DNA of 64,000 bases from Streptomyces sp. WMMB 322. GTDB lineage: Bacteria > Actinomycetota > Actinomycetes > Streptomycetales > Streptomycetaceae. A model generated the notes under the pieces. It was not told the DNA's origin, searched no databases, and saw only the letters and a program-made list of their open reading frames with translations. Position 1 is the first letter of the stretch; every line of letters begins with the position of its first letter. Shown in pieces: positions 28,607 to 61,704 of the stretch. The stretch is from NCBI RefSeq assembly GCF_900090145.1, contig NZ_FMHI01000002.1, positions 1 through 64,000 on the forward strand. Direction: 5' to 3'. Position numbers and translations under genes: made by a program.

Positions 28607-28691
28607 GGTAGCGTGTCCGAGCGGCCGAAGGAGCTCGCCTCGAAAGCGAGTGAGGGGCAACCCTCCGTGGGTTCAAATCCCACCGCTACCG
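28607..28691 (+). tRNA. tRNA-Ser (anticodon CGA)
   Basis: The acceptor stem GGTAGCG pairs with CGCTACC, and a G discriminator is at 28691. The anticodon stem CTCGC/GCGAG encloses loop CTCGAAA (anticodon CGA). The long variable arm (GAGGG/CCCTC) is typical of class II tRNA-Ser, and the T arm is GTGGG/CCCAC. The gene is complete, so integration of the downstream element left a functional tRNA at the left end. CCA is not encoded. A strong terminator hairpin follows at 28700. Confidence 0.95.
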
Positions 28692-28738
28692 CAGGTCAGA
28701 AGGGCCGGACCCCCAGCGGGGGTCCGGCCCTTCGGCGT
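28638..28738. repeat. attL: 101-bp direct repeat in tRNA-Ser 3' half
   Basis: A perfect 101-base repeat of 61604-61704, starting at the anticodon-loop edge (CCTCGAAAGC), running through the tRNA 3' end and its terminator, and ending TTCGGCGT. Both copies are in the same orientation. The two copies are offset by 32,966 bases. Repeats starting in the anticodon loop of a tRNA are the usual target of tyrosine integrases. Confidence 0.92.
28700..28732 (+). terminator. Terminator of tRNA-Ser
   Basis: A perfect inverted repeat AAGGGCCGGACCCCC / AGC loop / complement lies 9 bases after the tRNA. An identical copy lies within the right att repeat at 61666-61698. Confidence 0.88.
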
Positions 28739-28740
28739 TC

Positions 28741-28760
28741 CGTCTCAGTTTTCGTCTCAG
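28741..28760. promoter_or_regulatory. Candidate integrase arm-type repeats, left end
   Basis: Two direct CGTCTCAG repeats 12 bases apart (28741 and 28753) sit just inside the left att repeat. The same pair at the same spacing occurs near the right end (61470 and 61482). Arm-type binding sites for a tyrosine recombinase are a plausible reading. Bases 28761-28912 between here and array 1 show nothing else. Confidence 0.45.
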
Positions 28761-28912
28761 TTGCGCTCCTGGCTTTCGGCGTGGGTCGCCACGAGAGTGC
28801 CCAGCACGGGCAAGACCGAGGTGTCCCACCTCGGGCCCATGTCTCGGCGTAGTGGCCAGTCTCTGCTCGCGCTTCCCGCCGATCTCGTCCCTGCAAGCGG
28901 CGCAACATCTTG

Positions 28913-30121
28913 TGGGGCGCCCCTCCAGGGTGGATGACGACCGCGATGTCGCTGCTGTCCGAGGCGGCCGACTTCATGTTGCGAGCCCTCCAGGGCTGGG
29001 CTGATGACGACCGGGAGCCTGACGGCCTCCGCCGGATGGTGCGCCCCGTCGTTGCGAGCCCTCCAGGGCTGATGACGACGACGCACAACGCCAACGGAAA
29101 CGGGAACTTTCAGTACGTTGCGAGCCCTCCAGGGCTGATGACGACAGGACCGCACCAGTTCCCGCCTGAACATCCCCCGCGGTTGCGAGCCCTCCAGGGC
29201 TGATGACGACATGGATCACGGCACTATCGGGCATCTGACGATGTTGTTGCGAGCCCTCCAGGGCTGATGACGACTTGAGGTGCTTGACATCGCGACCCGG
29301 AGCGCTTCGGTTGCGAGCCCTCCAGGGCTGATGACGACGCCTTCCGAGCGCGTGCGGCACGACGGCGTTCCTTCTGTTGCGAGCCCTCCAGGGCTGATGA
29401 CGACGGCGCTCTACAAGCTCCCGAAGGCGGTCGGGTACGTCGTTGCGAGCCCTCCAGGGCTGATGACGACGCGGAGGCTGCGTTCTTGATCCAGCCCCAG
29501 CCCTTGTGTTGCGAGCCCTCCAGGGCTGATGACGACGTGTCCGGCGACGTTCACACGGGCCCGCTGACCATGTTGCGAGCCCTCCAGGGCTGATGACGAC
29601 ACCCCTCGCCGCCACCTGGGCCCTCTGGCGGGCCACAGTTGCGAGCCCTCCAGGGCTGATGACGACCCGTCCCCGCCTGGGAGGCCGTTGGCCTGCTCAG
29701 GTTGCGAGCCCTCCAGGGCTGATGACGACACAAGCTGGACGAGCTGGTTGCGTCCGTCGACGGCGTTGCGAGCCCTCCAGGGCTGATGACGACCTCGCCC
29801 TGTACGGGCCGGACGCGGTGCTCTGACCTGTTGCGAGCCCTCCAGGGCTGATGACGACGCCGCGGCCCCACAGACCGCCGCACTCGACCCTGCCGTTGCG
29901 AGCCCTCCAGGGCTGATGACGACTCAGGTCGTCGTCGTAGCTGGCGGCCTTGCTCCGGGCCATGTTGCGAGCCCTCCAGGGCTGATGACGACTGGAGTTC
30001 TTCGCCAGGCCGGTGCGCATCATCTGGTTGCGAGCCCTCCAGGGCTGATGACGACTGGTTCGGGCCGTCCCGGAACACCGTCCCGACCTGCCGTTGCGAG
30101 CCCTCCAGGGCTGATGACGAC
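28913..30121 (-). CRISPR. CRISPR array 1: 19 repeats, 18 spacers
   Basis: The repeat is 29 bp; on the plus strand it begins GTTGCGAGCCCTCCAGG and ends GCTGATGACGAC. Full repeats start at 29051, 29117, 29182, 29246, 29310, 29376, 29442, 29508, 29572, 29638, 29701, 29765, 29830, 29895, 29964, 30027 and 30093. The two left-most units are degenerate: 28913 (diverged 5' half) and 28978 (5-base insertion), marking the trailer end. Spacers are about 34-40 bp. Transcription should run on the minus strand from the leader at the right, directly downstream of cas2. No spacer target could be identified by eye. Confidence 0.97.
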
Positions 30122-30210: not shown

Positions 30211-30534
30211 TCAAAGGATGTCTCCGGGCCCACCCAACCAGGCGCCCAGCGAGCCGGTCTCGACTAGATCCGGGGACCTGACCGAGTACGTAAGGATGCT
30301 GTCATAGTCCGGGTCGATGGTCTCCTTCAACTCCGCAGTAAGCGCGCGGTATTGGGCGGATGAGAGTTCGCCCTGGAAGACGCTGCGTTGCGTCCAGTGA
30401 AGATACTTTCGACACGTCTTGAGAACCTTCGGGTTGCGTTCGACTGCCGTGTCGTAGACAAGGACGACGAAGATGGGATCTCCACCATGGACGGAAAGGC
30501 TTGTAAGGGGTGCCCTCGAGACAGAGTCGGACAA
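30211..30534 (-). CDS. cas2: CRISPR-associated endonuclease Cas2
   Basis: The conserved part starts at DPIFVVLVYDTA, with the catalytic-type Asp in VYDTA, and continues KVLKTCRKYLHWTQRSVFQGELS, typical Cas2. It ends 89 bases before array 1. Cas2 forms the Cas1-Cas2 integrase that inserts new spacers. The only canonical in-frame start upstream is TTG 30534, inside the cas1 coding region and without a good ribosome site. That would add about 17 atypical residues. The normal start seems altered by a small change at the cas1 end; see the finding on this junction. Coordinates use the TTG. Confidence 0.85.
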   Translation of the reverse strand: MSDSVSRAPLTSLSVHGGDPIFVVLVYDTAVERNPKVLKTCRKYLHWTQRSVFQGELSSAQYRALTAELKETIDPDYDSILTYSVRSPDLVETGSLGAWLGGPGDIL

Positions 30535-31456
30535 GCTTCAAAGCTTCGAGGTGGATGAGCTCCTCGTAGGTGATTTTCCGTTTCAGGGAGCGGTGATAGA
30601 TCGTCGTGGCAAGTTCCGCCTTCATCAGGGCGGATACCTTCTTCCGGCCCTCCTTGCTGAGCGACGCTCTGCCGACTTCGGTTTCGAAATCCGACGGCTT
30701 GAGCGTCTTCTGTGCTGCCGCTCTCTTGAGCAGGCGTTCGGCGAAGAGAGGCTTGAAGGGCTCCGCCAGGTCCAGGGCGAGGGTGTTGCGCCGCCTGTCC
30801 GTGTCCGCGTGGAGGAAGCCGATGGCGGGGTGAAGCGGCGTACTTCGCAAGGCTGTCAGCGCCCGGGCGTACACCAGAGCGTTGAGATAGCTGATGAAGG
30901 CATTGCCCGCGTTGGTGGGGGGCCGGCGACTACGTCCCTCAAGCCTTAGCCAAGAGGGAAGTTGCGTGTCCAGGACCGACCACCCTGTACGCCTGAAGTT
31001 TCCTTCCTGACCCATGATCTGAGCACTGTCCTCGCACTCTTCCAGCGCTGTCCTCAGTGCGTTCAGAGGCTGGTCGAGGCCTTCACCCAGCACCCATCGG
31101 AGATTCTCCGCCGTGGCGAGCACCAGGGACCTGGCAATCGGCAAACAGGTCTGCCGGACGGACGTCAGCTCGGCCTGCCGCCGAACAACACCCGCGCTGG
31201 ACATGGACTCCGAGGGAGCGAAGTGACCGGCGTGGTTCCCATAGTGGTCAAGCACGTGGAGAATCACTCCGTGCCTGCTGAGCAGGGACATCACCGATGT
31301 GTTGATGTCAACGTGGTCGAAAGCGACCAGGTCACGAATGTCGGTGACCGGGATACGGACGGGACTGCCGTCGGGGCGTTCGATGCGGACGCTGTTGTCC
31401 TCGCGACGGATACGACAGGGTTCCGTCAACCAATAGGTGCGGCCGACAGCAGGCAT
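30302..31456 (-). CDS. cas1: CRISPR-associated integrase Cas1
   Basis: ATG 31456 overlaps the Cas4 stop by one base (TGATG). The conserved protein (about 326 residues) includes DHVDINTSVMSLLSRHGV, NAGNAFISYLNALVYARAL, the catalytic-type His/acidic pair in GFLHADTDRRRNTLALDLAEPF, and the typical end YKPFRPWW near 30480. The frame then stays open for a further 58 or so residues, entirely overlapping cas2, to 30302. That tail looks like cas2 read in the wrong frame. Cas1 inserts protospacers into the array with Cas2. It is in a tight operon with cas4 and cas2. Confidence 0.9.
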   Translation of the reverse strand: MPAVGRTYWLTEPCRIRREDNSVRIERPDGSPVRIPVTDIRDLVAFDHVDINTSVMSLLSRHGVILHVLDHYGNHAGHFAPSESMSSAGVVRRQAELTSVRQTCLPIARSLVLATAENLRWVLGEGLDQPLNALRTALEECEDSAQIMGQEGNFRRTGWSVLDTQLPSWLRLEGRSRRPPTNAGNAFISYLNALVYARALTALRSTPLHPAIGFLHADTDRRRNTLALDLAEPFKPLFAERLLKRAAAQKTLKPSDFETEVGRASLSKEGRKKVSALMKAELATTIYHRSLKRKITYEELIHLEALKLVRLCLEGTPYKPFRPWWRSHLRRPCLRHGSRTQPEGSQDVSKVSSLDATQRLPGRTLIRPIPRAYCGVEGDHRPGL

Positions 31457-31971
31457 CAGTCCCCCCAGCAGTAGTCGAGGTAGGAACACTTACGGCATTC
31501 GCCTCGCGGCAGCCTCGCCTGCGGACCCGGGGCCGCCATGACCTCCGCCGCCTCCGCCTCGGCTTGTTCCGCTTGGCTGCGGGCGGCAGAGTCCCAGGGA
31601 ACATCCACGGTTCTGCGGATCAGCGGATAGTGCACCGTCCCTCCCCTGACCGTTACTCCCCGGCGCTCGAGCAGCAAGCAGTAGTGGCGTACTTGAGCTG
31701 CATGAGCCGGCGCCGGTGAGCGGGAGGATTTCGTCTCATGCACCACCGCCCCAGTCGTCACCCAGTCGACCTTGGCCTCGCCCAAGTCGAGGTCACGTCT
31801 GCGGGTGTACGTCGTGGCGTCCACAACCTCGCCGAACGCGACATCCTCGCTTCGTCGTTCGGGCCGGTAGCCTCGGCTGTACAGCCACAACTGCCTGCGG
31901 CAGTGCAGCAGGTACTTGATGTGAACGCCGCCCACCTGACCCTGGTGCCCGCTTGCTGCCCTCTCGCTCAC
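31456..31971 (-). CDS. cas4: CRISPR-associated exonuclease Cas4
   Basis: This 171-residue protein has the four cysteines of the Cas4 iron-sulfur cluster: Cys24 in LLHCRRQLW and Cys159, Cys162, Cys168 in CRKCSYLDYC. The RecB-nuclease core is visible around GEVVDATTY, LDLGEAKVDWV and VVHETKSSR (catalytic-type Glu and Lys). It processes prespacers and helps select PAMs in type I-B systems. GTG 31971 overlaps the Cas3 stop (GTGA), and its own stop overlaps the cas1 start by one base. Confidence 0.93.
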   Translation of the reverse strand: MSERAASGHQGQVGGVHIKYLLHCRRQLWLYSRGYRPERRSEDVAFGEVVDATTYTRRRDLDLGEAKVDWVTTGAVVHETKSSRSPAPAHAAQVRHYCLLLERRGVTVRGGTVHYPLIRRTVDVPWDSAARSQAEQAEAEAAEVMAAPGPQARLPRGECRKCSYLDYCWGD

Positions 31972-34376
31972 AGGATCGTCTCCGGAGCGGACGGCGGAGC
32001 CAGCTGGTCCGGGCGTTGGAGACCCATCGCCGTGTATGGAGCGTGAACTACTCGAATTCCGAGGTGACGGTCGAACTCCGCTTCAAAAGCCTTGAGTTGG
32101 CCATACCTGAGCGGGATCAGCAACTCGGCGGCCAGGAGCGGATCGCCTTCTCGCCCTTTCGTCCGTTCACGGTAGGTGTCCACGTCGTCCACGTGCACCA
32201 CTTCGACGCCGTCGAACTCTCTGCTGAGCTTCTCGGCGAACTCGCTGCGGTCGTGGAACGGCTGGTCGAAGGTGAGAAAGGTACGGGCGAATGCGTCGCG
32301 CGCCATTCGCGCTCTGGCGACCCAGTCCTCGCCCCAGGCCGTGTCATAGGCATCGGCGAGGAGCCTGTCGATGTCCTGCTCGCTGAGCGTGCCGGTGCCG
32401 GCTACCGTATGGGCGCTCAATGCTGCCCAGGCCGCCGCGACTGCTGCCTCCTCATAGGGCTCGTGGCCCGCAGGCTGGTGCACATGGAACTCGACCGGGC
32501 CCTCAGGGTGAAGACCGCGGCGATTCACACGACCTGCGCGTTGAGCAACTGCCTCCACCGGCGCGGCCTCCACCGCTCCGCGGTCGAAGTCGAGTTGGAG
32601 AGAGACCTCAACGGTCTGTGTGGCGACGACCAAGCCCCCCCGTCGGGCAGGGTCTCCGGCTTTCCGCTCTCGGTGGCGTTCGAGGAGGCGCTTCTCGATG
32701 GCCGCACGGTCCTGGTTCTTGAACCGCGAGTGCAGCAGGAGCGCGGCATCTGGGTCGTCAGGTACGGCCTCTCGGGCATCGCCGGCCAGGAGTTCGAAGA
32801 GTTCCTGTGCGGTGGCGACCTTGTTCACGACAGCGAGGACGCTGTAGCCCTGCTGAATCCACGCACGAAGCGCGGCCAGAGAGGGCGGGGCCGTCATCAG
32901 TTGGTCATCCAGGACGACGCGATGCCGATCAGGGCTCGTTCCAGGTGCTGCCCGGTGGGTTGAGACCCGCTGCTCTACGAGGCTCTCTTCGATGATTTCC
33001 GTCATCTGCGGAGCGAGGGTCGCGGACAGCACGGCGACGCGACTGCCGAGCCGCTCCCATAGGCGCAAAGTGGCGCAGAGCCGTCCAAAGGTCTCAGGTG
33101 CGTAGGCGTGCAGTTCGTCGAGAACGAAGAGCGCATTGGCCTGTTCCAGCAGCACCGACGAGTGCGAGGGCCCTGCCACCGCGCCGTTGAGGAGTTGGTG
33201 GGGCGTTGCTACGCGCGCACGCTGTACGAAGAGCCTCATGGCCGCGGCCCGGCTGCGGGCCTGACGTGCGAGAGCGGCACCCGGCTCGGCCTCGCCAGGT
33301 GTGCATTCGTCCTCAAGTGACTCCCGTAGCAGCGTGCTCGCCAGGGTGCCGTGCAGCAAGCCGATGTCGGGTTGCCGCTCTCCTTCGGCTGCTTGCAAGT
33401 CGCGCCGCAGTCTGTCCCTGGCGGCATTGAGCGAGGCCCGGTAAGGGAGCGTCCATACAAGTCGGGGCTGAGCAGGCATGGTCCGCAATTGGCGGGCTGC
33501 CCATGCCAGGCCGCCTTCGGTCTTACCGCTGCCAGTAGGCGCAACCAGGATGAGATGGCCGTCCGTACCCGCCGCCAGCCGCTGATGATCGTGCGGGGTG
33601 TACGGGAAGCGCTGCATATAGTCCGCGGGCAACGGCATGTGTGTCTGAAGATCCCGGTGAGCAGAGCCGGCGTGGTCCGCCAGGGTGAGTGCGCCCTGTG
33701 CCAGGACAGCGGACAGCCCTCGGACGGGGTCGACCGGACGGCGCCACTCCTCATAGAGCTCGTTCAGAACTCGCCGGGCCCGATTTGCGAGTTTGATGCC
33801 GTCGCCCGCGTCCTCCGGTAGAGGCGGCGCGATGCGGAGCTCACGCGCCAACCATGCGACCAGCTCTTCGTGTACGGATCGGGTCACCTGGACCTGCCGG
33901 GAGCCCAGGTGATGCCTGACGGTGAAGGCTTCTGCCCAGTCCGTAGTGTCGTTGTACTGCTGGGAGATGGCCGGCTTGGAGGGCGGCTCACTGCCGGGGA
34001 ATAGGGCTCGGTGATGGGTCGCCACGAGCGTGGCGACCAGGAGGCGTTCCTCTGTACTCCAACCGGCAGTTCGGGCCAGGATGTCCACGTAGGCCAGCGA
34101 CAGCACCTCGTGCCGCTCTCCCCAGCGCGGTTCCCCGGGCAGGAGTTGCTGCTGGAATCCGGCCGCGACCTTCCCCGCATCATGCAGAAGTGCCGCGGCG
34201 CGCACGCATTCCCACATGCGTGTATCTGCAGCCAGCGCCGGGGGTATGCCGATCCGTTTTCTGATCTGCTCGGAGCTGGAGCGCACCGTCAGCGAATGCG
34301 CGGTGAGACGTTCAGGATCGTGGGCTGGCTTGGACTTGGCCCGCACGTCAACGAGCCGTCTTGCGTGCCTGTTCAC
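31968..34376 (-). CDS. cas3: CRISPR-associated helicase-nuclease Cas3
   Basis: This protein is about 802 residues from GTG 34376, which overlaps the cas5 stop (GTGA); ATG 34391 is an alternative. The N-terminal HD nuclease has His27 and the HD pair at 65-66 (ALLHDAGK), with further His in THHRALF. The superfamily 2 helicase shows APTGSGKTEG (Walker A), VLDELHAY (DEAH-like box), SATLAP and the C-terminal AQRAGRVNRRG. It degrades DNA bound by the Cascade complex. The nuclease and helicase are fused in one chain, as is usual for type I-B. No truncation or missing motif is apparent. Confidence 0.95.
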   Translation of the reverse strand: MNRHARRLVDVRAKSKPAHDPERLTAHSLTVRSSSEQIRKRIGIPPALAADTRMWECVRAAALLHDAGKVAAGFQQQLLPGEPRWGERHEVLSLAYVDILARTAGWSTEERLLVATLVATHHRALFPGSEPPSKPAISQQYNDTTDWAEAFTVRHHLGSRQVQVTRSVHEELVAWLARELRIAPPLPEDAGDGIKLANRARRVLNELYEEWRRPVDPVRGLSAVLAQGALTLADHAGSAHRDLQTHMPLPADYMQRFPYTPHDHQRLAAGTDGHLILVAPTGSGKTEGGLAWAARQLRTMPAQPRLVWTLPYRASLNAARDRLRRDLQAAEGERQPDIGLLHGTLASTLLRESLEDECTPGEAEPGAALARQARSRAAAMRLFVQRARVATPHQLLNGAVAGPSHSSVLLEQANALFVLDELHAYAPETFGRLCATLRLWERLGSRVAVLSATLAPQMTEIIEESLVEQRVSTHRAAPGTSPDRHRVVLDDQLMTAPPSLAALRAWIQQGYSVLAVVNKVATAQELFELLAGDAREAVPDDPDAALLLHSRFKNQDRAAIEKRLLERHRERKAGDPARRGGLVVATQTVEVSLQLDFDRGAVEAAPVEAVAQRAGRVNRRGLHPEGPVEFHVHQPAGHEPYEEAAVAAAWAALSAHTVAGTGTLSEQDIDRLLADAYDTAWGEDWVARARMARDAFARTFLTFDQPFHDRSEFAEKLSREFDGVEVVHVDDVDTYRERTKGREGDPLLAAELLIPLRYGQLKAFEAEFDRHLGIRVVHAPYTAMGLQRPDQLAPPSAPETIL

Positions 34377-35065
34377 GGGGCCAGCAGCCATACCGCCTGT
34401 CCGTCCTCGTCCCGGAAAGCGCCCGTAACCTGATGGATTCCGGCCGACTCCTCGCACCAAAGAATCTCCGTCAACCGAGTGGCAAGACGATCCGGCGAAA
34501 TGCTGGAGGCCATGCGGTGGAGCGTTGCCTGCGGTGCGTCGTGCCCGCCGGCCGGCGCCAGAGCGTGCCCCACCACCGCCTCGTCGGCGGCCTCCAGCCG
34601 CGTCCGATGGAGGCCGAGGGGATGGACGATGTCCTGGGACCGCCCCAGACGCAGCGGCCAGCGCGGACGACGTAGGGCCGTTGCCAGCCGGTCCCCGTCC
34701 GGGCCGGTCATCCAGACCGTCAGTCGGACTCCGGTGAGGAACGGTCGGTCGCGAATGGTCATGCCTCCCTTGACCGCACGCACCCGCCCCGAGAAGGCGG
34801 GATTGCTGCCGTCGGCTGCGATCGGGTGGTAAGTCTCAGCGTCCACTCCACTCCCCTGCGGCCAACTCGCCAGCCCCACGGGCAGGTTCTCCACGTCCTC
34901 GCCGCTCGCGGCGGCCAGGAGGCCACGGACGGTCGAGGGCGGCGGCACGGGAAGGCCGTGCGTCATTCCCGGAAACAGAGGGTCGCGGAAGGAGGCGACG
35001 GGGGCGAAGAAGTCCGCCCGCCACCCCCTTCGGCTGCCGGTCGCGTCGTCAGCGCTCGGGATCAT
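34373..35065 (-). CDS. cas5: CRISPR-associated protein Cas5
   Basis: This 230-residue protein has the typical Cas5 start WRADFFAPVASFRDPLFPG, followed by LPVPPPSTVRGLLAAASG, a conserved early segment of type I-B Cas5. It caps the 5' handle of crRNA in Cascade. ATG 35065 overlaps the 3' end of cas7 by 17 bases. It ends by overlapping the cas3 start. The C-terminal part (VTGAFRDEDGQAVWLLAP) is diverged, as expected for the family. Confidence 0.9.
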   Translation of the reverse strand: MIPSADDATGSRRGWRADFFAPVASFRDPLFPGMTHGLPVPPPSTVRGLLAAASGEDVENLPVGLASWPQGSGVDAETYHPIAADGSNPAFSGRVRAVKGGMTIRDRPFLTGVRLTVWMTGPDGDRLATALRRPRWPLRLGRSQDIVHPLGLHRTRLEAADEAVVGHALAPAGGHDAPQATLHRMASSISPDRLATRLTEILWCEESAGIHQVTGAFRDEDGQAVWLLAP

Positions 35066-36107
35066 CGAACCAGCCGTCCAGCTTTCCTTCGCGAATCTCC
35101 GCGGCGAGGTCGCGGAGCATCGTCCGGGGGTGCTCGATGACGATCTTCCCCTCGTCCAACTCCTGAGCGCAGTCTTTACGGAAGGCCTCCCTCAGCTCAT
35201 CGCGGAAGCCGGGGCGCCATCCGACGCGGACGGGAGATTCCCACTCGCTCTCCCACGCCTTCAATTCGTCCAGCAGGACCTTGCCACGCACGCGTAGCCC
35301 CGAGCCGGGCTCCCCGTCGATGCAGTTGGCGAGCGGATTGATGCCGCCCTTGAACGGGACGAGCATCATCAGCGACGGCACCCGGTCCCCGTAGTGCAGA
35401 GCCTGCTTCGCACCGCCGCTCAAATGCGCCAGCGATTCAAGCAGCAGCGCCGCCCGGTGGCGGCGTTCCTCAATCGGCAGCCGAACTGCCCCCTGCCCTC
35501 GGAAGTCCACGGGTACGGCGCCGGCCTGAGCAGCCTTCGCCACCTCCATCGCCTGCTCCTGGCTGAGGTAGTTCGGCCGGCCCACTCCCTTGTCGCTGGG
35601 CAGCGTGAACGTACCGATGCGCGGTACGTCCAGCAAGAACGGAGCGGCAAGATCCGCGGTGTAGAACTCGTGGCCGTGCAGCACGGGCTCGGTTACGCCC
35701 CGGGACATCACACCGAAGTCCTCCGTGGGATAGACCGGTTCGACCGACATCAGGGTTCCGAGCATGAACGGGCTGTCGCGGAGCGTCGTGGCCGCATCGT
35801 CCTTCTTCGCTCCGGCCCGCATGTACCCGAAGAGGTCGTCATCGGCGTAACGAACAGGGTCGGCCGCGGTGTTCGCCTTCTGCGCCTTGCCTTGGGCTTT
35901 GCCCACCCGCTCGACTGGAGACGGAACAGCTCCAAGCTCGACCATGCCGTCCCGTGCCCAGCGACGAGCGGCCTGAGCCGAGATGTAGGGGTGCATCTTC
36001 CCGCGGACACGGGCGTACTTGACCTTCGCCTTGGTCTCTTCGCCCCTGCCGTTGTTGGGCGCTCCGGCCTCAACGGCCAGAACCATTTTGCCTGCCAGAA
36101 ACGCCAT
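35049..36107 (-). CDS. cas7: CRISPR-associated Cas7 (DevR/Cst2 type)
   Basis: This 352-residue protein forms the helical backbone of Cascade. Family features: KVKYARVRGKMHPYISAQAARRW in the N-terminal part, SVEPVYPTEDFGVMSRG in the middle, and the SGGAKQALHYGDRVPSLMMLV segment. These match the Cas7/Cst2/DevR group found with type I-B systems. ATG 36107 overlaps the cas8 stop by one base (TAATG). The central loop (GKAQGKAQKANTAAD) is Ala/Lys-rich and probably flexible. It is coupled to cas5 downstream. Confidence 0.92.
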   Translation of the reverse strand: MAFLAGKMVLAVEAGAPNNGRGEETKAKVKYARVRGKMHPYISAQAARRWARDGMVELGAVPSPVERVGKAQGKAQKANTAADPVRYADDDLFGYMRAGAKKDDAATTLRDSPFMLGTLMSVEPVYPTEDFGVMSRGVTEPVLHGHEFYTADLAAPFLLDVPRIGTFTLPSDKGVGRPNYLSQEQAMEVAKAAQAGAVPVDFRGQGAVRLPIEERRHRAALLLESLAHLSGGAKQALHYGDRVPSLMMLVPFKGGINPLANCIDGEPGSGLRVRGKVLLDELKAWESEWESPVRVGWRPGFRDELREAFRKDCAQELDEGKIVIEHPRTMLRDLAAEIREGKLDGWFDDPER

Positions 36108-37543
36108 TACATCGGCTCCTCGTCGTACGCGGTGATGATCGGCTCCTCGATGAGCCGCTCGACCTCTTCGTCTTCTTCCTCGTCCATCCCTTGCTTCTCG
36201 CCGATGGCCACCCCGCGCTGCTGCAGCATCTGCAAGACACCGGCAAACAGGAGCATGCGCTGCTCCCAGGCCCGCGGCCGTTGCTGGATGAGCGGTGCCC
36301 AGTCCTCGGGCCCCGCCGCCACCTCCCGGCCGTCCAAGCAGAGACGCGAGTGGGCCTTCATGAGCAACAGGCCGAGCTTGTAGTCGCTGAGAGCGACGGA
36401 TCGGTATTCGGCAACGCGGCCCCGTGGACTGCCGCTGCCGTGTTCGATCCAGTCCGCCAGCAGCGACGCGACCGGCGACGGCTTGTGCGGGTCCACGTCC
36501 ATGCCGAGTACCTCCTTGGCGTAGTCAAAGGCGAGTTGGGTGAGTGCGGCACGGTTCTCCAGGCGCCAGGACTCCACGTTCAGGAGCATCCGCGCGAGCT
36601 GATCGAGGAATGAACGGGATCGACCGTCGTCGGCTTCGAACAACAGCCTTGCCGCCTCAGTGCGGCCGTCTTTCAGGGGCTTCCCTTGCTTGTCCCGCTC
36701 GGTCATGGCTGCAACGAGCAGTCCCCAGCCCCGTCGCAGGGGAGCGTTGGCCTCAATGCGCGCCAGGAATCTCGGGATGGTCCGGCGAGACCTGGTGATT
36801 CGCAGCCAGGGCTCCTGGTTGTCGTTCTTGAAGGTCCACAGTGTCGCTGCTGCGGGCAGACCAGCGCCGAGCGTCCTCAAGGCCGCAAGGATCACCCTTT
36901 CCGGCCGTGCACCTGCCGGTTCGCCCTTGGATCCGAAGCCGACCTGGAGCAGCCATTCGGACCGACGGATATTGCTCCGTACAAACCCCTGCTCGACCTT
37001 TGCCCGTTCGCACGAGAGGACCGTGGCCGAGCCGGCGGTGACCCAGGCTCCATAGGGCAGCGTCCAGGCTGCGAGGCGGCACCCACGGCAGACGGGCCAG
37101 CCCGGCGAACCTGGAGGCAGCGTGTTCAACGCCTTGTTCGTATCGAACATAGGCAGATGGGACTTCGTCCAGGTCTTCCTCGTCGATGCCCCGCAGAATG
37201 TGCAAGGCCATCGCTCGAGCCCGCCCTGACGATCGGCCTCGAACCATCCAGCGACCTCGGCTTCCAGCACCGCCCGGTCGCGTGGTCTTTTCGCGTGAGT
37301 GGGCTTGGAGTTGGGGTAAAGCGCGAACAGCACCTTCCACCAGTCGTATGCGGGATCGTCCTTGCTCGCCGTTGCTGCGGTACAGACGTCCTGCACGACG
37401 CGGGCCGCCACGGCGTCGAGATCCGAGTCGGTCACTTCCTCTGCTGACTGCTTCCCGGCCATGGCCACAACCGCCCATGCGCCGGCACGTTGCAGCGGAT
37501 GACCGGTGACGGTCAAAGGGGAGGCCGTGGTCGTGGCATTCAT
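36107..37543 (-). CDS. cas8: CRISPR-associated large subunit Cas8 (Cas8a1/Cst1-like)
   Basis: This 478-residue protein starts MNATTTASPLTV and overlaps the cas6 stop (ATGA). A zinc-ribbon-like pair of Cys motifs is present in PCTFCG and VCRGC, as in the Cas8a1/Cst1 large subunits of type I-B systems that recognise PAM. The C-terminus ends in a strongly acidic stretch (MDEEEDEEVERLIEE). Sequence outside the zinc motif is diverged, as is usual for Cas8, so assignment rests on operon position, size and the zinc motif. Start chosen for the overlap; a longer frame upstream lies inside cas6. Confidence 0.82.
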   Translation of the reverse strand: MNATTTASPLTVTGHPLQRAGAWAVVAMAGKQSAEEVTDSDLDAVAARVVQDVCTAATASKDDPAYDWWKVLFALYPNSKPTHAKRPRDRAVLEAEVAGWFEADRQGGLERWPCTFCGASTRKTWTKSHLPMFDTNKALNTLPPGSPGWPVCRGCRLAAWTLPYGAWVTAGSATVLSCERAKVEQGFVRSNIRRSEWLLQVGFGSKGEPAGARPERVILAALRTLGAGLPAAATLWTFKNDNQEPWLRITRSRRTIPRFLARIEANAPLRRGWGLLVAAMTERDKQGKPLKDGRTEAARLLFEADDGRSRSFLDQLARMLLNVESWRLENRAALTQLAFDYAKEVLGMDVDPHKPSPVASLLADWIEHGSGSPRGRVAEYRSVALSDYKLGLLLMKAHSRLCLDGREVAAGPEDWAPLIQQRPRAWEQRMLLFAGVLQMLQQRGVAIGEKQGMDEEEDEEVERLIEEPIITAYDEEPM

Positions 37544-52921: not shown

Positions 52922-53698
52922 TCAAATGGGCGTTGCGCAGTCGGTCCGACTCACCGGGATCTCGTACACGAGCTCGCACAACGCCGCCGGCACCACGATG
53001 TCCGCCGTCTCCACCGGCCGTCCCTCGTCGCTGTAGTACGTCCGCTGGATCTGCGTCACCAGCGCGCCGCGCGGCAGGCTGAGCAGGGCGAGCTCCTCGG
53101 CCGTCGCGAGGCGCGGCTCCGGTCGCTCTACGGCGTGGGTGACGGTGACGCCGATCTCGGCCATGCGCTCGACCACGCCGCGGCCGGCGTGTGGCCCGCC
53201 CTCGGGTAGCAGCACGATCGTCCGGCTAGTGAGGTCGTACGGTTCCCAACTGGTAGACAGCTGCACGGGTTTGCCGTCGGCCATGAACTCGTACCGAGTG
53301 TGGACGCCGAGCGCTCCCTCGTCGATGTCGAGGCGCGCGGCGATGTCCGTCGGCACAGGGGCCTTCGCCTCGGTGTGGCTCTCCCAGGTGCCCTGCTTGC
53401 CGAGTGCTGCCATGTTCGCGCGAAACGGGGAGCCTCCCTGCTGCTCCCGAATCGGCGAGCGCATCATGCGGATGCGTGCCCGAGGTTGGGCGACGTACGT
53501 GCCCGAGCCGGTGCGCCCTTCGAGATGACCTTCAGCGATCAGCACGTTGTTCGCGCGCCTGACGATCGCCGGTCCGACCCCGTACTCCTCAGCGAGGCGG
53601 GCACGTGACGGCAGCTTCTCCCCAACTTCCCACTCACCACTGGCGATACGCGCCCGGAGCAAGTCGGCGATGCGCAGGTACGGCGGCTGCTCAGGCAT
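52922..53698 (-). CDS. GntR-family regulator (UTRA type)
   Basis: This 258-residue protein has a GntR winged helix (YLRIADLLRARIASGEWEVGEKLPSRARLAEEYGVGPAIVRRANNVL) and a UTRA domain from about residue 90, including FMADGKPVQLSTSWEPYDLT. ATG 53698 has TTCCATATG-like context. It is divergent from the small gene at 53776, with a 77-base intergenic that has TGACTA direct repeats (about 53729 and 53742). It is one of three GntR proteins on this element, probably controlling a different promoter from the copy at 49220. Ligand unknown. Confidence 0.9.
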   Translation of the reverse strand: MPEQPPYLRIADLLRARIASGEWEVGEKLPSRARLAEEYGVGPAIVRRANNVLIAEGHLEGRTGSGTYVAQPRARIRMMRSPIREQQGGSPFRANMAALGKQGTWESHTEAKAPVPTDIAARLDIDEGALGVHTRYEFMADGKPVQLSTSWEPYDLTSRTIVLLPEGGPHAGRGVVERMAEIGVTVTHAVERPEPRLATAEELALLSLPRGALVTQIQRTYYSDEGRPVETADIVVPAALCELVYEIPVSRTDCATPI

Positions 53699-53775
53699 AT
53701 GGAAAATCTAACCGACCATGCTAAGCTGACTAGCCACCTTGACTATCTGTATTCGTAGGGTCGGGGGCCACCGCA

Positions 53776-54057
53776 ATGTCGACACCTGCGTCCCGCGCCC
53801 GCGAGATGGCGGAGTGCCTGACCGCTGCCGGCTTCAGCCCGACGGTGCAGGACCACGAGGACCACATCCGCGTGGAAGCCAAGGCGCCTGACGGGACCTC
53901 CGAAGAGTCCTGGATGGCGGCGTTACGCGCGCTCACATCGGTCGACCGTCTCGGCCAGGACGAGGACGACAGCGGCAACAAGACCGTGTGGGCCGTCGTA
54001 TTCAAAGAGACCCCCGCGACAGCGCCGGCTGCCCGGGGGCGTGGCCGTCAGCTTTAG
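53776..54057 (+). CDS. Small hypothetical protein
   Basis: This 93-residue protein starts MSTPASRAREMAECLTAAGFSPTVQ, with GGGTCGGGGG upstream. It reads as a small alpha/beta protein (FSPTVQDHEDHIRVEAKAP then SWMAALRALTSVDRLGQD). No family is known to me. It is divergent from the GntR gene at 53698 and precedes another GntR gene by about 94 bases, so it may be regulated by either. Real-gene status is supported by codon bias and placement. Confidence 0.65.
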   Translation: MSTPASRAREMAECLTAAGFSPTVQDHEDHIRVEAKAPDGTSEESWMAALRALTSVDRLGQDEDDSGNKTVWAVVFKETPATAPAARGRGRQL

Positions 54058-54150
54058 GGAGCTGAGCGACATGATGAACCGTAGCCACTACACCAGCGAG
54101 CAGCCACGGTGCGTTCCTCACGCACCGGCCCGCGGCACGAAGGGCCGGTG

Positions 54151-54894
54151 ATGTGTGTGGCGCGCTACCAGCAAGTCGCCGATTCGATCCGCGGGCAGAT
54201 CGCCGACGGAACACTGAGCGCCGGGGACAGACTGCCGACGGAGCCGGAGCTCGTCGACGAGTACGCAGTGAGCAGACTGACCGTCCGTCACGCCCTCGAC
54301 GTCCTCCAGGCCGAAGGGCTCGTGGAGAAGTTCCACGGCCGAGGCACCTTCGTCCGCCGGCCGCCGCAGCGAGTGGCGTACGTCAGCGCATGCAGCGATG
54401 GTCTCCCGCAGCCGCAAGCGGAGAACGTCGAGATCGAGACGTACGTCAGGCCGGGCTCGGTTCTCGCCGAGGCGCCGCTGACGGCCCTGATGCAGGTGGA
54501 GCGGGGGACCGAACTCGCGGAGTACCTGTACTTCAGCCGGAGAGACAAGCGTCCGTACAGCCTGGCGCGCATTCACGTCCCTCTCGACCTGGCGGAACTT
54601 CTCGACACCCCTACGGCGAGGCTGCCTTGGGGCGCCGAGATCCCCCACGGCTTACAGGCCGCCGGCGTCCGCCTGGCGCACATCACCGAGCGGGTCACCA
54701 CGCGACCGCCGACGCAGGATGAGGCGGACCATCTGAATCTGCCGGCCGGAGCGACCGTGCTGGAGGTCGAGCGGACCTCGGTCGACGATCGCGGCCGGGT
54801 CGTTGAAGGTGCGCAACTCGTGGCCCCGCAGGACCGCATCGAGGTCGTCTTCTCGAAGGCCCTCCCCGGGTCGGAAGGCGGTGATCTGCGGTGA
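54151..54894 (+). CDS. GntR-family regulator (UTRA type)
   Basis: This protein has about 247 residues from ATG 54151 (AAGGG upstream; GTG 54148 is adjacent). It has a GntR winged helix (YQQVADSIRGQIADGTLSAGDRLPTEPELVDEYAVSRLTVRHALDVLQAEGLVEKFHGRGTFV) and a UTRA domain to the end. This is the third such regulator in the element. The next gene, a small Cys-rich protein, overlaps its stop (GTGA), so the two are coupled. Target and ligand unknown. Confidence 0.9.
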   Translation: MCVARYQQVADSIRGQIADGTLSAGDRLPTEPELVDEYAVSRLTVRHALDVLQAEGLVEKFHGRGTFVRRPPQRVAYVSACSDGLPQPQAENVEIETYVRPGSVLAEAPLTALMQVERGTELAEYLYFSRRDKRPYSLARIHVPLDLAELLDTPTARLPWGAEIPHGLQAAGVRLAHITERVTTRPPTQDEADHLNLPAGATVLEVERTSVDDRGRVVEGAQLVAPQDRIEVVFSKALPGSEGGDLR

Positions 54895-55097
54895 TGTTCG
54901 GCAAGCCGTGCTGCCTCTGCGATGAGAAGCAGGGGGAGAAGGTGCTCGTCCAGTGCATCGAGAGTGGTTCGGGGCCCGGTTGGAGCCTCTACGCCTGCCC
55001 CACACCGTGCGCGCAGCAGTACGCGACACGCTCCTACGCCCCGGACTGGCTGCCTGACGAGCTGGCCAAGTTAGGGCTGTGGCCCCCGGAGAGCTGA
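54891..55097 (+). CDS. Small Cys-rich protein, probable zinc binder
   Basis: This protein has about 68 residues from GTG 54891 (or ATG 54894), coupled to the GntR gene. Cysteines are in CCLCDEK near the N-terminus, VQCIE, and ACPTPCAQQ in the middle, consistent with a small zinc-ribbon-like fold. Similar small proteins follow GntR regulators in other streptomycetes, as I recall. It ends 26 bases before a strong bidirectional hairpin. Function unknown. Confidence 0.7.
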   Translation: MMFGKPCCLCDEKQGEKVLVQCIESGSGPGWSLYACPTPCAQQYATRSYAPDWLPDELAKLGLWPPES

Positions 55098-55122
55098 CCG
55101 CGAATGGAATGGATGGAGCGGC

Positions 55123-55153
55123 GGAGCCCTCACGCGAGATGCGTGAGGGCTCC
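55123..55153. terminator. Bidirectional hairpin terminator
   Basis: Perfect 13-base arms GGAGCCCTCACGC and complement with a 5-base loop lie between the convergent small Cys-rich gene and FkbM methyltransferase gene. Confidence 0.85.
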
Positions 55154-55161
55154 GTCGGCGT

Positions 55162-56082
55162 TCAGGCCAGCGATTCGGCGTCGACGCGGGAGAAGACCAG
55201 ATCCATCTCCTCGCTGACGGGCTGGCGCCAACGTCTCGGCGGCAGGGGACGACGGATGGCCGACGGATAGCTCCCCGGGTCGTAGTCGTTGACCAGCCGG
55301 TACGCGTGAAAGCCGGCCTCGGTGAACGACGTGAGCAGCTCCTCTGCCGAGTCCCCCAGTGCGCGCATGCGCTCGGGCGTCACCTCGACCACCACCTCCG
55401 CGTCCTCCCGCAGACGCGCGAAGGCGGGCTTCAGCCCTCGTACGGCGGCTCCTTCGGCCCCTTCGACGTCGATCTTGATCACGCGGGCGCGTTCAATCTC
55501 CTGCTCACTGAGCAGCATGGTCAACGGGTGGGCGTCCACCTCGAATTCGGCCAGTGCCGGGCCGGAGTAGGGGACGGTGCTGGTCGCGCCGGTGTTGCGT
55601 GAGCTCGCCTGGACGAACGTCACGGTCTCGTCCTTGTCGGAGACCGCGGCATTGACCGTACGGAGGTTCCGGCAGCGGTTCATCTGGGCTTGCTGCACAA
55701 GCTGGCGATGGAACGTCGACGAGGCCTCGATGGCGACGACCGTCCCTTCCGGACCGACCAGAGACGAGCCGAGCACGCTGAAGTAGCCGACGTTGGCGCC
55801 CACATCCACAAAGACGTCCCCCGGCTTCAGCCGCTGCTTGAGCCAGTGGGTGAGGTGCGGTTCCCAGACGCCGAAGAGGTACAGGTGCCTCTGGATCAAG
55901 TCCTCGGTGTCGACCAGGAATCGGGCACCGGAGCGTGTCCGGGCAGGTCGCCGTACGGGATGCTCGCGGAGCTGGGGCACCAGGTAGTTCCGCGCGAGTG
56001 CCCTCTTGCCCAGCACTCCGGGCGCGTGGCGGACATAGCCCCGTCCGAGGACATGGAAGAGCCGCCGACCGTCCACGTTCAT
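55162..56082 (-). CDS. FkbM-family methyltransferase
   Basis: This 306-residue protein has a SAM-binding core: VFVDVGANVGYFSVLGSSL (motif I, about 90-108), VVAIEASSTFHRQL (motif II) and IKIDVEGAEGAAVRGL (FkbM motif). These enzymes O-methylate sugars, glycans or polyketides. The N-terminus lacks a signal peptide or membrane helix. Within the element it is cargo, 4.4 kb from the glycosyltransferase; both hint at glycan modification. A terminator hairpin lies at its 3' end. The start at 56082 is preceded by GGGGGAG. Confidence 0.88.
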   Translation of the reverse strand: MNVDGRRLFHVLGRGYVRHAPGVLGKRALARNYLVPQLREHPVRRPARTRSGARFLVDTEDLIQRHLYLFGVWEPHLTHWLKQRLKPGDVFVDVGANVGYFSVLGSSLVGPEGTVVAIEASSTFHRQLVQQAQMNRCRNLRTVNAAVSDKDETVTFVQASSRNTGATSTVPYSGPALAEFEVDAHPLTMLLSEQEIERARVIKIDVEGAEGAAVRGLKPAFARLREDAEVVVEVTPERMRALGDSAEELLTSFTEAGFHAYRLVNDYDPGSYPSAIRRPLPPRRWRQPVSEEMDLVFSRVDAESLA

Positions 56083-58121: not shown

Positions 58122-58215
58122 GGAGACACACTCCTCGGTCGCGTGAGTGATCAGTTACTCACTGACGGTAAGAGTGCCTACCGTGGAGCAGGGGCAGGAT
58201 TTCTGCCCCTTGCCA

Positions 58216-59454
58216 TCAGGCCGCCAACACGCCGACCTTTACGGCGAGTTCGGATGCGCGGCGCCGCCGTTCAGGCGCCTTCGCTTCCGTCTCCTCCAGG
58301 ATGATGCGGCGCGCGTAGCCGTTGTACCGGATCGTCTCCGGAGCGTTGGCGTACGCCTTGTCCAGAGTCTCCAGAGCCGTCTCGGGCTTCCCGTCCAGCT
58401 GGTAGGCGCGGGCCTCTTCGATGCGGTGACGAGCCCGGCGCGGTCGGGAAGGGATCGAGCCCGCATCGGCTCGTGTGGCCTGACGCACGCTCTCGTTGCC
58501 GGCATGCAACTCCACGGCGAGCGTGACTGCGTGGGCTCCCATCACCGCCCGGGAGAAGCTGGTGACGGGGTGGTAGTAGTCGGTGGGAAGGCGCGCGGCG
58601 GCTCGGTCGGCCTTGTCCCACCAGCCCCAGGCGCTGCCGGTGTCCCCGCGGCGCGCCGCCGTGTAGCCGGCCGCCATCTCCAACGCTCCCGCGATGGCCC
58701 GCACTTCATCGTCGGCATCCGGCAGTCGGGCCTCAAGCCACCGCAAGGCCTTCATGGTCACCGCGTCCGCGCCGTCGTAATGTCCGGCATCGCGGTGCGC
58801 CTCGGCCGTCAGCCATGCAGCCATGCCCAGCGCGTGGGGGTCCTCCGACTCCTGGGCCGCGACAATGCCGCGCTCCGCCACCCGCCACAGCAGCGCCGAA
58901 TCGGGCTGGTAGGCAAGGAAGAACTGAGCGAGGCAGTACACCTCGGCGAGCGCAGCCTGAGCGGAGCGCCGCTCCGCAGACGTTCGGGCCTGCCGCACTG
59001 CAAGCTGCCCGTCGCGGATCAGATCAGGCAGCAACGTCCCGATGACGTCCCGGTGGTTCGGGGCAGAATGCCGGGCGCTCCATGCGTGGGCGATACGCGC
59101 CTGAAGGTGCGCAGCCTCCGGAGCCGGCCGATCGTCGCCGGCGAGGGGGAAGGCGTCCACGGCCGCCCGCACACCAGACAGGCGCGGATGACCCGGACCG
59201 ACGAACAGGGCCGTAGGCACGCGGGCGTCCCCGGTGAGGTCCGACAGGTCCCGCACTCGCAGCACCTCTGCCATGCGCAGCACCATCGGCAGCGCAGGAA
59301 TGTGAAGGTCCCCGCGCTCCACCTGCTTCAACCACGACGGCGACTTGCCCAACAGCCCCGCGAGCACCGGACGCGTCATGCCGCGACGCGTTCTCAGGAT
59401 GCGCAAGCGCTCCCCGAATGCGATGGGTTCAGGGGTGGTGTCGGGGTGCGACAT
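58216..59454 (-). CDS. XRE-family regulator with TPR-like C-terminal domain
   Basis: This 412-residue protein starts MSHPDTTPEPIAFGERLRIL at ATG 59454 (GAGAGGGG upstream). An XRE HTH covers about residues 10-70 (RLRILRTRRGMTRPVLAGLLGKSPSWLKQVERGDL). The rest is a helical solenoid with TPR-like repeats (AQAALAEVYCLAQFFLAYQPDSALL, AYQLDGKPETALETLDKAYANAP). Such proteins sense peptides or internal state in streptomycetes (BldD-unrelated type). It probably controls the downstream small-gene operon 58121-57132 and sits at the right end of the element, next to the array 3 leader. Confidence 0.85.
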   Translation of the reverse strand: MSHPDTTPEPIAFGERLRILRTRRGMTRPVLAGLLGKSPSWLKQVERGDLHIPALPMVLRMAEVLRVRDLSDLTGDARVPTALFVGPGHPRLSGVRAAVDAFPLAGDDRPAPEAAHLQARIAHAWSARHSAPNHRDVIGTLLPDLIRDGQLAVRQARTSAERRSAQAALAEVYCLAQFFLAYQPDSALLWRVAERGIVAAQESEDPHALGMAAWLTAEAHRDAGHYDGADAVTMKALRWLEARLPDADDEVRAIAGALEMAAGYTAARRGDTGSAWGWWDKADRAAARLPTDYYHPVTSFSRAVMGAHAVTLAVELHAGNESVRQATRADAGSIPSRPRRARHRIEEARAYQLDGKPETALETLDKAYANAPETIRYNGYARRIILEETEAKAPERRRRASELAVKVGVLAA

Positions 59455-59880
59455 GGCTCTGGCCCCTCTCCGGTGTGGCGGCGGCACTCAACAGAGTATG
59501 AGGCAGAGTCAGTTTTGTGTCTCCGGAGTACAACTCGCTGTAGCGTCTTCACGCGTGCTGCATCTCCTTGACTGGACCCCGCCAGCAGGGGATCTCGCCG
59601 ACGTCGCCAGGAACGGACAATGTGAGTGCCTCTCATAACGACGGCGGCCGTTTGGCTCACGGATGGGCTACCGCGCAGTGACAGCAGCCCGGACAACCTA
59701 CGCGCAGCACCCACGCTAGCCAGCGCCAGAATGGAGTGGACGCCCGCAGATGCGGCTGCTCCGACAAAAGGGGACGCGGGCAACGCTCTGACCAGGGCAG
59801 ATACACTACCGACGAGTCGCTGCAGAATCGCACCGTCCGCGTTCCTGCAAAGGCAGCGTGACCTGGCGCTTTACCCTCGG
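59455..59880 (+). promoter_or_regulatory. Region upstream of array 3 and its leader
   Basis: The first 330 bases hold the XRE/TPR gene promoter and no gene. The leader proper spans 59786-59880 (CTCTGACCAGGGCAGATAC onwards) and is closely similar to 38506-38600 in length and sequence; ATACACTACCGACGAG lies 80 bases from the first repeat, and CTTTACCCTCGG abuts it. Confidence 0.8.
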
Positions 59881-61216
59881 GTCGTCATCAGCCCTGGAGG
59901 GCTCGCAACGCGCTTCCGGTCACAGCACGGCCCTACGACTACCGCACGTCGTCATCAGCCCTGGAGGGCTCGCAACACCTGCGGCTGATCTCGTCGGAGA
60001 AGCTCTCCGAAGAGTCGTCATCAGCCCTGGAGGGCTCGCAACGGCCCCTTTGCGGGTGGCTTTCTCGACGCGGGCTACGTCGGGTCGTCATCAGCCCTGG
60101 AGGGCTCGCAACCTGGCCTCGCCCGGTTGGGTGGTGGCTGCTCCTCCTCGTCGTCATCAGCCCTGGAGGGCTCGCAACACGAGCTGCCCGGTCACGAACC
60201 ACAGGTCCGTGATGGTCGTCATCAGCCCTGGAGGGCTCGCAACGCCTTGGTGGGCGGGCCGACGGGCGCGGGCTCCGGTCGTCATCAGCCCTGGAGGGCT
60301 CGCAACCGTGGGTGCGGAGCCAGCAGCAGGGGGCGGCCGGTAGTCGTCATCAGCCCTGGAGGGCTCGCAACAAGCGTTTCTCGCCGCCGTCCGCCGCGCC
60401 AACCGGTCGTCATCAGCCCTGGAGGGCTCGCAACCGTGGGTGCGGAGCCAGCAGCAGGGGGCGGCCGGTAGTCGTCATCAGCCCTGGAGGGCTCGCAACA
60501 AGCGTTTCTCGCCGCCGTCCGCCGCGCCAACCGGTCGTCATCAGCCCTGGAGGGCTCGCAACCGCTCCTTGGCACCCAGACAGATGCGCTCGAACAGCAG
60601 TCGTCATCAGCCCTGGAGGGCTCGCAACGTGGACATCAATGCCAGCCTCCGCAACGCGGACGTCGTCATCAGCCCTGGAGGGCTCGCAACGGCGGCCTGG
60701 AACGGGCCATCTCACACGCCGTGGATCTCGTGTCGTCATCAGCCCTGGAGGGCTCGCAACTGCCCCTCGTCGGCGTCCTACTGCCGGTCATCATCATGTC
60801 GTCATCAGCCCTGGAGGGCTCGCAACTTGTCCGGGTCGGTACGCTCCGTGCGGGCCTGCCGTGTCGTCATCAGCCCTGGAGGGCTCGCAACAGGCAGTCG
60901 TACTGCCCGGCCGGCAGGGTGGTGCGGGTCGTCATCAGCCCTGGAGGGCTCGCAACTGGCTGCAACGCCACATCAAGCGGCTGCCGCACACCGGTCGTCA
61001 TCAGCCCTGGAGGGCTCGCAACACGGGGTGGTGGACCAGGCCAAGAGTGCCGCCCAGGTCGTCATCAGCCCTGGAGGGCTCGCAACCTGTGTGTTCAGGC
61101 GCTGTTCGGGCAGGCCGCCGTCGTCGTCATCAGCCCTGGAGGGCTCGCAACACAGGACGCGCCGCCAGCCGTCGGCGCCGAACACTTGTCGTCATCAGCC
61201 CTGGAGGGCTCGTAGA
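59881..61216 (+). CRISPR. CRISPR array 3: 21 repeats, 20 spacers
   Basis: Repeats of 29 bp (GTCGTCATCAGCCCTGG ... GCTCGCAAC) start at 59881, 59948, 60014, 60084, 60150, 60215, 60278, 60343, 60406, 60471, 60534, 60600, 60662, 60732, 60798, 60863, 60928, 60994, 61058, 61123 and 61188. The last is degenerate (ends GCTCGTAGA). Spacers are 33-41 bp. Two consecutive repeat-spacer pairs are duplicated: 60278-60405 equals 60406-60533. Same repeat as array 1, so the same Cas6 should process both. No cas gene lies nearby; the cas operon is over 21 kb away. Confidence 0.97.
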
Positions 61217-61603
61217 CCCCAGCATCGGGAGCGTGCTGGCCACCTCCCCGCGCCGCGGCCAAGCGCTCCCTCGCTTTGGGCTTTCCTCGGTCTCTTGGAC
61301 CGCCGACCGCTGCCCCCAGCCGGTTACGGCGGTTACGCACAGAAGGCGAGTTCCGCGTGCTCAGCCGAGGCGTCGGTCCTCCCCCGCAGCGCATCCGGTA
61401 GCGCGGGCCACCAGCCTTCTCGTCCAGCGCCGTCGGACGCCACTTTCGGGACGTGCTGCGCCCTGTCTCCGTCTCAGTTTCCGTCTCATTCACCCCCGTA
61501 CACGAGCATCCGCAGCCGTTCATCCGTTGCCGCAGGCACTGGCAAAGACCTGGCCGGACGCTCGCGAACTTCCGCGAACGACACCCTCACCAGCGCGAAC
61601 AGA
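61217..61603. other. Right end of element between array 3 and att
   Basis: 387 bases with no convincing gene. The CGTCTCA direct repeat pair at 61470 and 61482 mirrors the pair next to the left att (28741 and 28753) with the same 12-base spacing. Confidence 0.5.
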
Positions 61604-61704
61604 CCTCGAAAGCGAGTGAGGGGCAACCCTCCGTGGGTTCAAATCCCACCGCTACCGCAGGTCAGAAGGGCCGGACCCCCAGCGGGGGTCCGGCCCTTCG
61701 GCGT
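61604..61704. repeat. attR: second copy of 101-bp tRNA-Ser repeat
   Basis: A perfect copy of 28638-28738: tRNA-Ser from the anticodon loop to the 3' end, plus its terminator hairpin (61666-61698). The 5' half of the tRNA is absent (61603 and upstream do not match), so this is a remnant, not a second tRNA gene. Confidence 0.92.

Follow-up and report, generated by a model that had tools for sequence, protein, structure and literature searches.

The 64-kb stretch of Streptomyces sp. WMMB 322 analysed here (the window; the whole genome comprises 6.6 Mb in 32 contigs) probably carries a potentially mobile actinomycete integrative and conjugative element (AICE) that holds, within one element, a complete type I-B cargo of clustered regularly interspaced short palindromic repeats (CRISPR) and CRISPR-associated (Cas) genes, as judged from gene content and att sites. 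Because the CRISPR system and its memory banks sit inside an element built like conjugative ones, acquired immunity would probably be transferred from cell to cell as a single unit. An initial annotation of the window had described a perfect 101-bp repeat of the tRNA-Ser 3′ half at both ends, 32,966 bp apart, with a full type I-B cas operon, three arrays, and AICE integrase, TraB and spread genes in between; each of these was recovered in our analysis, and the repeat coordinates and spacing were borne out.

Element boundaries and att sites

The integration site is a tRNA-Ser (CGA) gene (28607–28692, plus strand), the sole tRNA detected in the window by ARAGORN. As in AICEs integrated in a tRNA gene with flanking att direct repeats, a 33-kb element is bounded by attL (28638–28738, plus strand), which covers the 3′ part of the tRNA and the terminator, and attR (61604–61704, plus strand); the two 101-bp copies were 100% identical, with a start-to-start spacing of 32,966 bp. 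The repeat was present twice in the 6.6-Mb genome, and both copies fell within one 549-kb contig. A 132-bp query spanning the tRNA and the att repeat matched six places in the whole genome, namely attL, attR and four weak ones, of which one was a 73% tRNA match and three corresponded to the terminator part.

A motif pair (CGTCTCAGTT twice, 12 bp apart) adjoins attL (28739–28763, plus strand), and a second pair, of GTCTCA motifs at the same 12-bp spacing, is located some 0.12 kb inward of attR (61470–61492, plus strand). The motif CGTCTCAGTT was seen three times in the window, every time at the att ends. Counted from GGGTTCAAATCCC in the tRNA, the offsets of the two pairs were +73/+85 (tRNA side) and −164/−152 (far side). 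Att-like sites were found in 24 of the 41 AICE-type stretches scanned (35 sites in total); a 12-bp-spaced pair was present in 11 of 14 tRNA-side sites, where its first motif fell between +73 and +84 and nine pairs were within 3 bp of +73/+85, and in 17 of 21 far-side sites, mostly at −155/−143. We infer that the paired motifs at the att ends are integrase arm sites, and the recombination site of the element looks intact.

The type I-B CRISPR-Cas cargo

The cas operon consists of eight open frames on the minus strand (30211–38229), arranged from 38229 to 30211 in the order cas6-cas8-cas7-cas5-cas3-cas4-cas1-cas2. These frames were assigned to cas6b (37540–38229), a cas8b-like large subunit (Cst1; 36107–37588), cas7b (Cst2/DevR; 35049–36107), cas5b (34373–35065), cas3 with HD and helicase parts (31968–34460), cas4b (31456–31971), cas1b (30302–31489) and cas2 (30211–30534, with homology from about residue 20). 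Cas1 and Cas7 scored above the cut-offs of the NCBIfam type I-B (TIGR03641) and Cst2/DevR (TIGR02585) models, respectively, and the best PADLOC matches of Cas4, Cas3, Cas5 and Cas6 were I-B models. Of the genes expected in type I-B systems, cas3, cas5b, cas7b and cas6 were found together with the adaptation genes cas1b, cas2 and cas4, and arrays lie beside the operon, as in type I-B loci. Regarding the large subunit, Cas8b was the single family matched in all five aligned Cas8 members (best 3.8e-9); some homologues are named Cst1 and many ‘hypothetical protein’, and the Cas8 profile had no match among solved structures. The columns invariant in comparison with sister loci numbered 110 of 393 in Cas1 (29 loci), 194 of 830 in Cas3 (30 loci) and 76 of 171 in Cas4 (29 loci). 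A Cas1 family search identified the Cas1 of the element as the only one in the genome. The cas1 and cas2 frames share as much as 0.23 kb (30302–30534), and the extra cas1 tail matches in sister loci too.

The three arrays hold 43 spacers in total, 41 of them unique. Array 1 (28978–30121, minus strand; 17 spacers) adjoins cas2 with its leader side, array 2 (38601–39017, plus strand; 6 spacers) adjoins cas6 with its leader side, and array 3 (59881–61216, plus strand; 20 spacers, 18 unique) lies near the opposite end of the element, so that about 11.5 kb of CRISPR-Cas DNA is split between both ends. The leader and first repeat of array 3 were 90% like those of array 2, and the array 3 repeat equals the array 1 repeat. 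A genome-wide search allowing up to three mismatches returned 44 matches to this repeat type, all inside the element, and none with the backwards control; other repeat types were not sought. The repeat of array 2 is one base off that of arrays 1 and 3 (GGGTTCGC vs GGGCTCGC), and in array 3 two spacer-repeat units are tandemly duplicated (60278–60533; spacers 7–8 equal spacers 9–10).

AICE backbone genes

Next to array 2 lie a tyrosine integrase gene (39170–40393, minus strand; PF00589), whose relatives occur at tRNA-Ser, and a gene for a helix-turn-helix (HTH_17) protein (40404–41207, minus strand) that was excisionase-like in its C-terminal part according to Pfam; an integrase with an Xis-like HTH protein is the pairing typical of AICEs. 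The integrase frame is full-length with HxxR; its stretch GWSSTSMAARY was read by inspection, and a scripted pattern for it returned nothing. A TraB-like DNA translocase of the FtsK family (45139–47469, minus strand) was recognized by a homologue profile and homologue names. It had no match in Pfam or NCBIfam, a profile from three TraB homologues matched FtsK chains at 1.9e-6, and many close homologues carry the name FtsK; the protein has a GKT Walker A motif. Its closest relatives among the matches listed were from Streptomyces winkii (94%) and S. daqingensis (86%), and S. winkii was absent from the 120 Cas8 relatives listed out of 274. A Pfam scan of 20 non-cas proteins of the element, a subset of its frames, revealed no type IV secretion system (T4SS) or relaxase domain, in keeping with the single FtsK-like TraB that AICEs use instead of a T4SS. 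A Spd-like DUF2637 protein (47473–48507, minus strand) and a GntR/UTRA regulator in a KorSA-like position (49220–50008, plus strand), both assigned by Pfam, supply the spread protein and regulator also expected of AICEs.

AICEs are typified by pSAM2 and SLP1, and their replication initiators are RepSA, RepAM or Prim-Pol. In the present element, the predicted replication protein contains DnaB_N and DUF3987 domains (41003–42979, minus strand; Pfam), and relatives of it occupy the same place in other AICEs (genomes G073 and G344).

Comparison with CRISPR-less AICEs

Among 392 genomes of the same genus (own genome included), 123 contained a relative of the integrase at E ≤ 1e-80. Two AICEs without CRISPR share gene content or order with the element. 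The G073 element resides at the same tRNA, with att copies 17 kb apart and identities of 84% for the integrase, 74% for rep and 57% for traB. The G344 element resides at a tRNA-Ser(GGA), has a 99-bp repeat 28.8 kb apart, and is syntenic from the integrase to FkbM, with identities of 64% (integrase), 47% (rep), 68% (traB), 61% (spd) and 73% (GntR), followed by 69% (glycosyltransferase), 68% (GntR) and 61% (FkbM) in the distal genes. The corresponding distal genes of the present element are a family 2 glycosyltransferase (50002–50766, plus strand) and two further GntR regulators with an FkbM methyltransferase (52922–56082); an HTH_31 (XRE-type) regulator (58216–59487, minus strand) precedes array 3. 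Shared with known AICEs are, overall, the tRNA att repeats, tyrosine integrase, HTH/Xis-like protein, FtsK-like TraB, Spd/DUF2637 and GntR regulators, whereas the CRISPR-Cas DNA at the ends, the integrase far from attP and the DnaB_N-DUF3987 replication protein set the element apart.

A tRNA-Ser was in view at 18 of 29 other integrase loci, 0.1–1.4 kb from the integrase homology; the distance was about 0.12–0.14 kb in 8 of them and 0.8–1.4 kb in the other 10, and the idea of a constant gap of about 0.13 kb was dropped on account of the latter. In the present element, a 10-kb cassette (array 1, cas2-1-4-3-5-7-8-6, array 2) occupies the space from the left motif pair to the integrase. None of the 41 AICE-type stretches, each at most 20 kb long, contained a cas match at 1e-8. 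In five loci (L027, L032, L033, L035 and L037), differing small open frames occupy the gap between tRNA-Ser and integrase, which is possibly a cargo slot. At the same tRNA-Ser in another genome (L162 in G088), a 61-residue integrase piece (91% alike) and a GntR gene (68% alike) lie between att-like copies, possibly as the remnant of a sibling element.

Sister cas loci and the probable origin of the cargo

A relative of Cas8 was found in 14 of the 392 same-genus genomes (own included), and a close one (55–62%) in 4 of the 391 others. A Cas7 scan of GTDB species genomes yielded 30 loci, 15 titled Streptomyces and 15 from other actinomycetes. In 18 of 32 rows (two rows representing one locus), the sister operon lay between two arrays, as the operon here lies between arrays 1 and 2. 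ARAGORN detected no tRNA in the 30 sister loci. Hidden Markov models (HMMs) of the AICE integrase, traB, rep and spd gave no match in 37 stretches surrounding sister operons, which represent some 31 distinct loci with flanks to 10 kb (some ended by contig ends), while two positive controls matched. The initial annotation had named as counter-evidence the same CRISPR-Cas locus at this place in relatives lacking the integrase and tra genes and the second repeat; no such case was found in the comparison, which covered relatives outside the species. With CRISPR-less AICE kin on one hand and sister operons without AICE genes within reach on the other, the likeliest origin of the cargo is that an AICE took up an I-B cassette of this general type. 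The S. specialis locus (L068, L056) has cas4-cas1-cas2 in inverted orientation, with an array separating these genes from cas3.

Spacer targets

The initial annotation had proposed comparing the spacers with plasmids, AICEs and phages. Phage near-matches were obtained for A3_5 (31/36, glycosyltransferase gene of phage Kromp), A3_20 (30/36, lysin gene of phage Dubu) and A1_17 (32–36/44, capsid genes of Streptomyces and Mycobacterium phages), and none for the spacers of array 2. Spacer A3_5 also resembled a stretch on three Pseudonocardia plasmids, one of which was retrieved (31/36, 5′ TCG). A total of 17 phage records were matched, flanks were taken from 5, and the six 5′ flanks read were TCG (four) and TCC (two). 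The functional protospacer-adjacent motifs of the Saccharopolyspora spinosa type I-B system are TCG, CCG, TCC, TCT and CCT, and 99.5% of 2104 Streptomyces spacers had no phage or plasmid match, according to a review (PMC12231136). Such few imperfect matches modestly support phage targeting.

The 43 spacers shared at best 27 identical bases with the 41 AICE stretches, where shuffled and reversed spacers reached 29 and 30, respectively; AICEs thus gave nothing above the controls, and the plasmid search gave the near-match of A3_5 to Pseudonocardia. Regarding self-targeting in the window, the best match had 26 identical bases (shuffled, 30; reversed, 24). No Cas7 was confirmed in viral contigs, cassette DNA had no near match in plasmids, and Cas7 had two distant plasmid matches at 1e-30 (46% and 35%). 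The other plasmid matches of the arrays, which ran into repeats (by coordinates) or came from unrelated hosts, were taken as chance; four array matches were in P. fungorum, and the one retrieved had the flank GGC.

Proposed mechanism and alternative explanations

The integrase and the Xis-like protein would join attL to attR by recombination; in the resulting circle, one continuous block would run from array 3 through attP, array 1 and the operon to array 2. The DnaB_N-DUF3987 protein may help replication, TraB would pump double-stranded DNA into a recipient, and Spd would spread the element there; the recipient would gain phage immunity, which in turn would favour the element. The cassette itself probably came into an ancestral AICE from an I-B locus like those seen in other actinomycetes. 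We regard as evenly balanced the broader proposal that the AICE is a self-transmissible vehicle of whole adaptive immunity, gained or lost in one site-specific step, and that the gap between att and integrase is a cargo slot exchanging such modules. On this proposal, the att site would sit mid-way in the CRISPR block of the circle, which would physically interlock immune memory with mobility.

Several observations weigh against a mobile AICE with a complete I-B cargo. The att-to-integrase distance is 10.4 kb, unlike in the relatives, and no second AICE with CRISPR cargo was found, the element being known from one genome. The predicted replication protein matched no RepSA, RepAM or Prim-Pol family, and the 493-aa protein at the Cas8 place was matched by PADLOC Cas8b alone, weakly (6.9e-9). 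Regarding the sister loci, the seeds of the AICE-gene HMMs numbered 40, 29, 10 and 4, and dissimilar elements would escape these models; 2 of the 30 loci hold weak relatives (32–38%) of other element genes, and the S. specialis locus has a 21-bp fragment, 95% like the 3′ part of tRNA-Ser, about 0.65 kb beyond cas4. Regarding immunity, only 3 of the 43 spacers had near-matches in phages, all of them inexact (E 7e-4 to 0.3), and the first two bases of A3_5 are mismatched against phage Kromp. Neither three exact spacer pieces of 20–22 bases nor a pair of longer degenerate patterns, which together represent 5 of the 41 unique spacers, matched viral contigs.

Some of these points could also be explained by an AICE that is no longer mobile. 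Its cargo would then in effect belong to the chromosome and be maintained for host defence, and its integration or transfer functions would have decayed or become unlinked from attP. The 10.4 kb between integrase and attP, the lack of a second cargo-bearing element among the 391 other same-genus genomes searched by Cas8, and the integrated state of the element within one contig are consistent with such decay. We nevertheless consider it rather unlikely, given a full-length integrase with HxxR and the stretch GWSSTSMAARY (as read by eye), a TraB with GKT Walker A, an att core with its motif pairs, and att repeats that are still identical. A chance neighbourhood of a CRISPR-Cas locus and an AICE, in which case the outer 101-bp repeats would only flank a composite, might account for CRISPR DNA at both element ends, for the sister cas loci without AICE genes and for some 10 kb more of extra DNA right of attR. 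An att remnant of such a composite island was sought between array 2 and the integrase by the whole-genome att query and by att homology comparison, and no att-like copy was present there; moreover, the CRISPR block separates the integrase from the left motif pair, which stands at attL, as would be expected of a block inserted within the element, and array 3 lies inside the motif pair of attR. This arrangement makes chance neighbourhood very improbable.

A further question is what the cargo would be used against. The CRISPR-Cas system might mainly be a weapon of the element against other AICEs and plasmids rather than phages, as was proposed for CampyICE1 (PMC8743540), and the resemblance of A3_5 to the Pseudonocardia plasmid stretch (31/36, 5′ TCG) fits this idea. 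It is made unlikely by the comparison with the 41 AICE stretches, where the best match (27 identical bases) fell below those of shuffled (29) and reversed (30) spacers, and by the best matches being phage lysin, capsid and glycosyltransferase genes.

Relation to known systems

Complete CRISPR-Cas systems have been described on integrative and conjugative elements (ICEs) of other kinds. An intact type I-C system with an array is carried by the pKLC102-like ICE PAGI-34 of Pseudomonas aeruginosa ST277 (PMC7092672), which resembles the present case but combines another subtype with a Gram-negative ICE, unlike I-B on an AICE. The Frankia element Fcci3350 is likewise an actinobacterial conjugative element with cas genes, but it is a T4SS-like ICE and not an AICE, and it was called likely not functional (PMC3218068). 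The Streptomyces linear plasmid pSHK1 shares CRISPR-Cas on a mobile element, with arrays beside the operon and further arrays elsewhere, but it is a plasmid with subtype I-E, for which no activity was reportedly seen (PMC12231136). CampyICE1 also has three arrays, but its sole Cas protein is Cas9, and its spacers are mostly predicted to match plasmids (PMC8743540). Type IV-B systems are found on ICEs (PMC11656645), spacers of ICEs and integrative and mobilizable elements in ESKAPE bacteria favour prophages (PMC9841420), and some AICEs are described as carrying a dinuclease as defence-island-linked cargo (PMC11706625). The view in the initial annotation that systems on mobile elements are often minimal or lack Cas1 agrees with figures for plasmids, where adaptation modules accompany 36% of systems versus 88% on chromosomes (PMC9071438), but does not extend to ICEs, where complete systems are known (PMC7092672). 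A literature search with AICE terms, which had most subscription papers outside its reach, did not turn up any AICE described as carrying CRISPR-Cas.

The distribution of CRISPR-Cas among Streptomyces is uneven: a survey recounted in PMC12231136 found it in 26 of 70 genomes, nearly always as type I-E. A conjugative element that holds the operon, adaptation genes and arrays would offer a direct, testable route for its spread in this genus, and one strain is enough to ask whether acquired phage memory is inherited sideways via double-stranded DNA conjugation.

Empty site and right flank

In the survey of empty sites, 149 other genomes were searched and 29 tRNA-Ser loci were retrieved, 24 of which had no relative of the element’s integrase within 1.5 kb. 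The left neighbours (27325–28474) were kept in nearly all of the retrieved loci. On the right, the initial annotation had expected the tRNA to adjoin the sigma-factor gene at 61755 once the element was removed, which did not hold in the two relatives compared further (G089 and G043), where the genes that come after the tRNA encode two sigma factors and are 85–89% like those at 72.0 and 72.9 kb of our contig. Because the tRNA of these relatives adjoins genes that lie 10 kb further right here, the sequence that follows attR for some 10 kb (61705 to ~71900) and contains the sigma gene at 61755 is likely extra DNA as well. No further att copy was found in this region, which encodes sigma-factor, haem-oxygenase-like, GCS2, methyltransferase and hemerythrin proteins.

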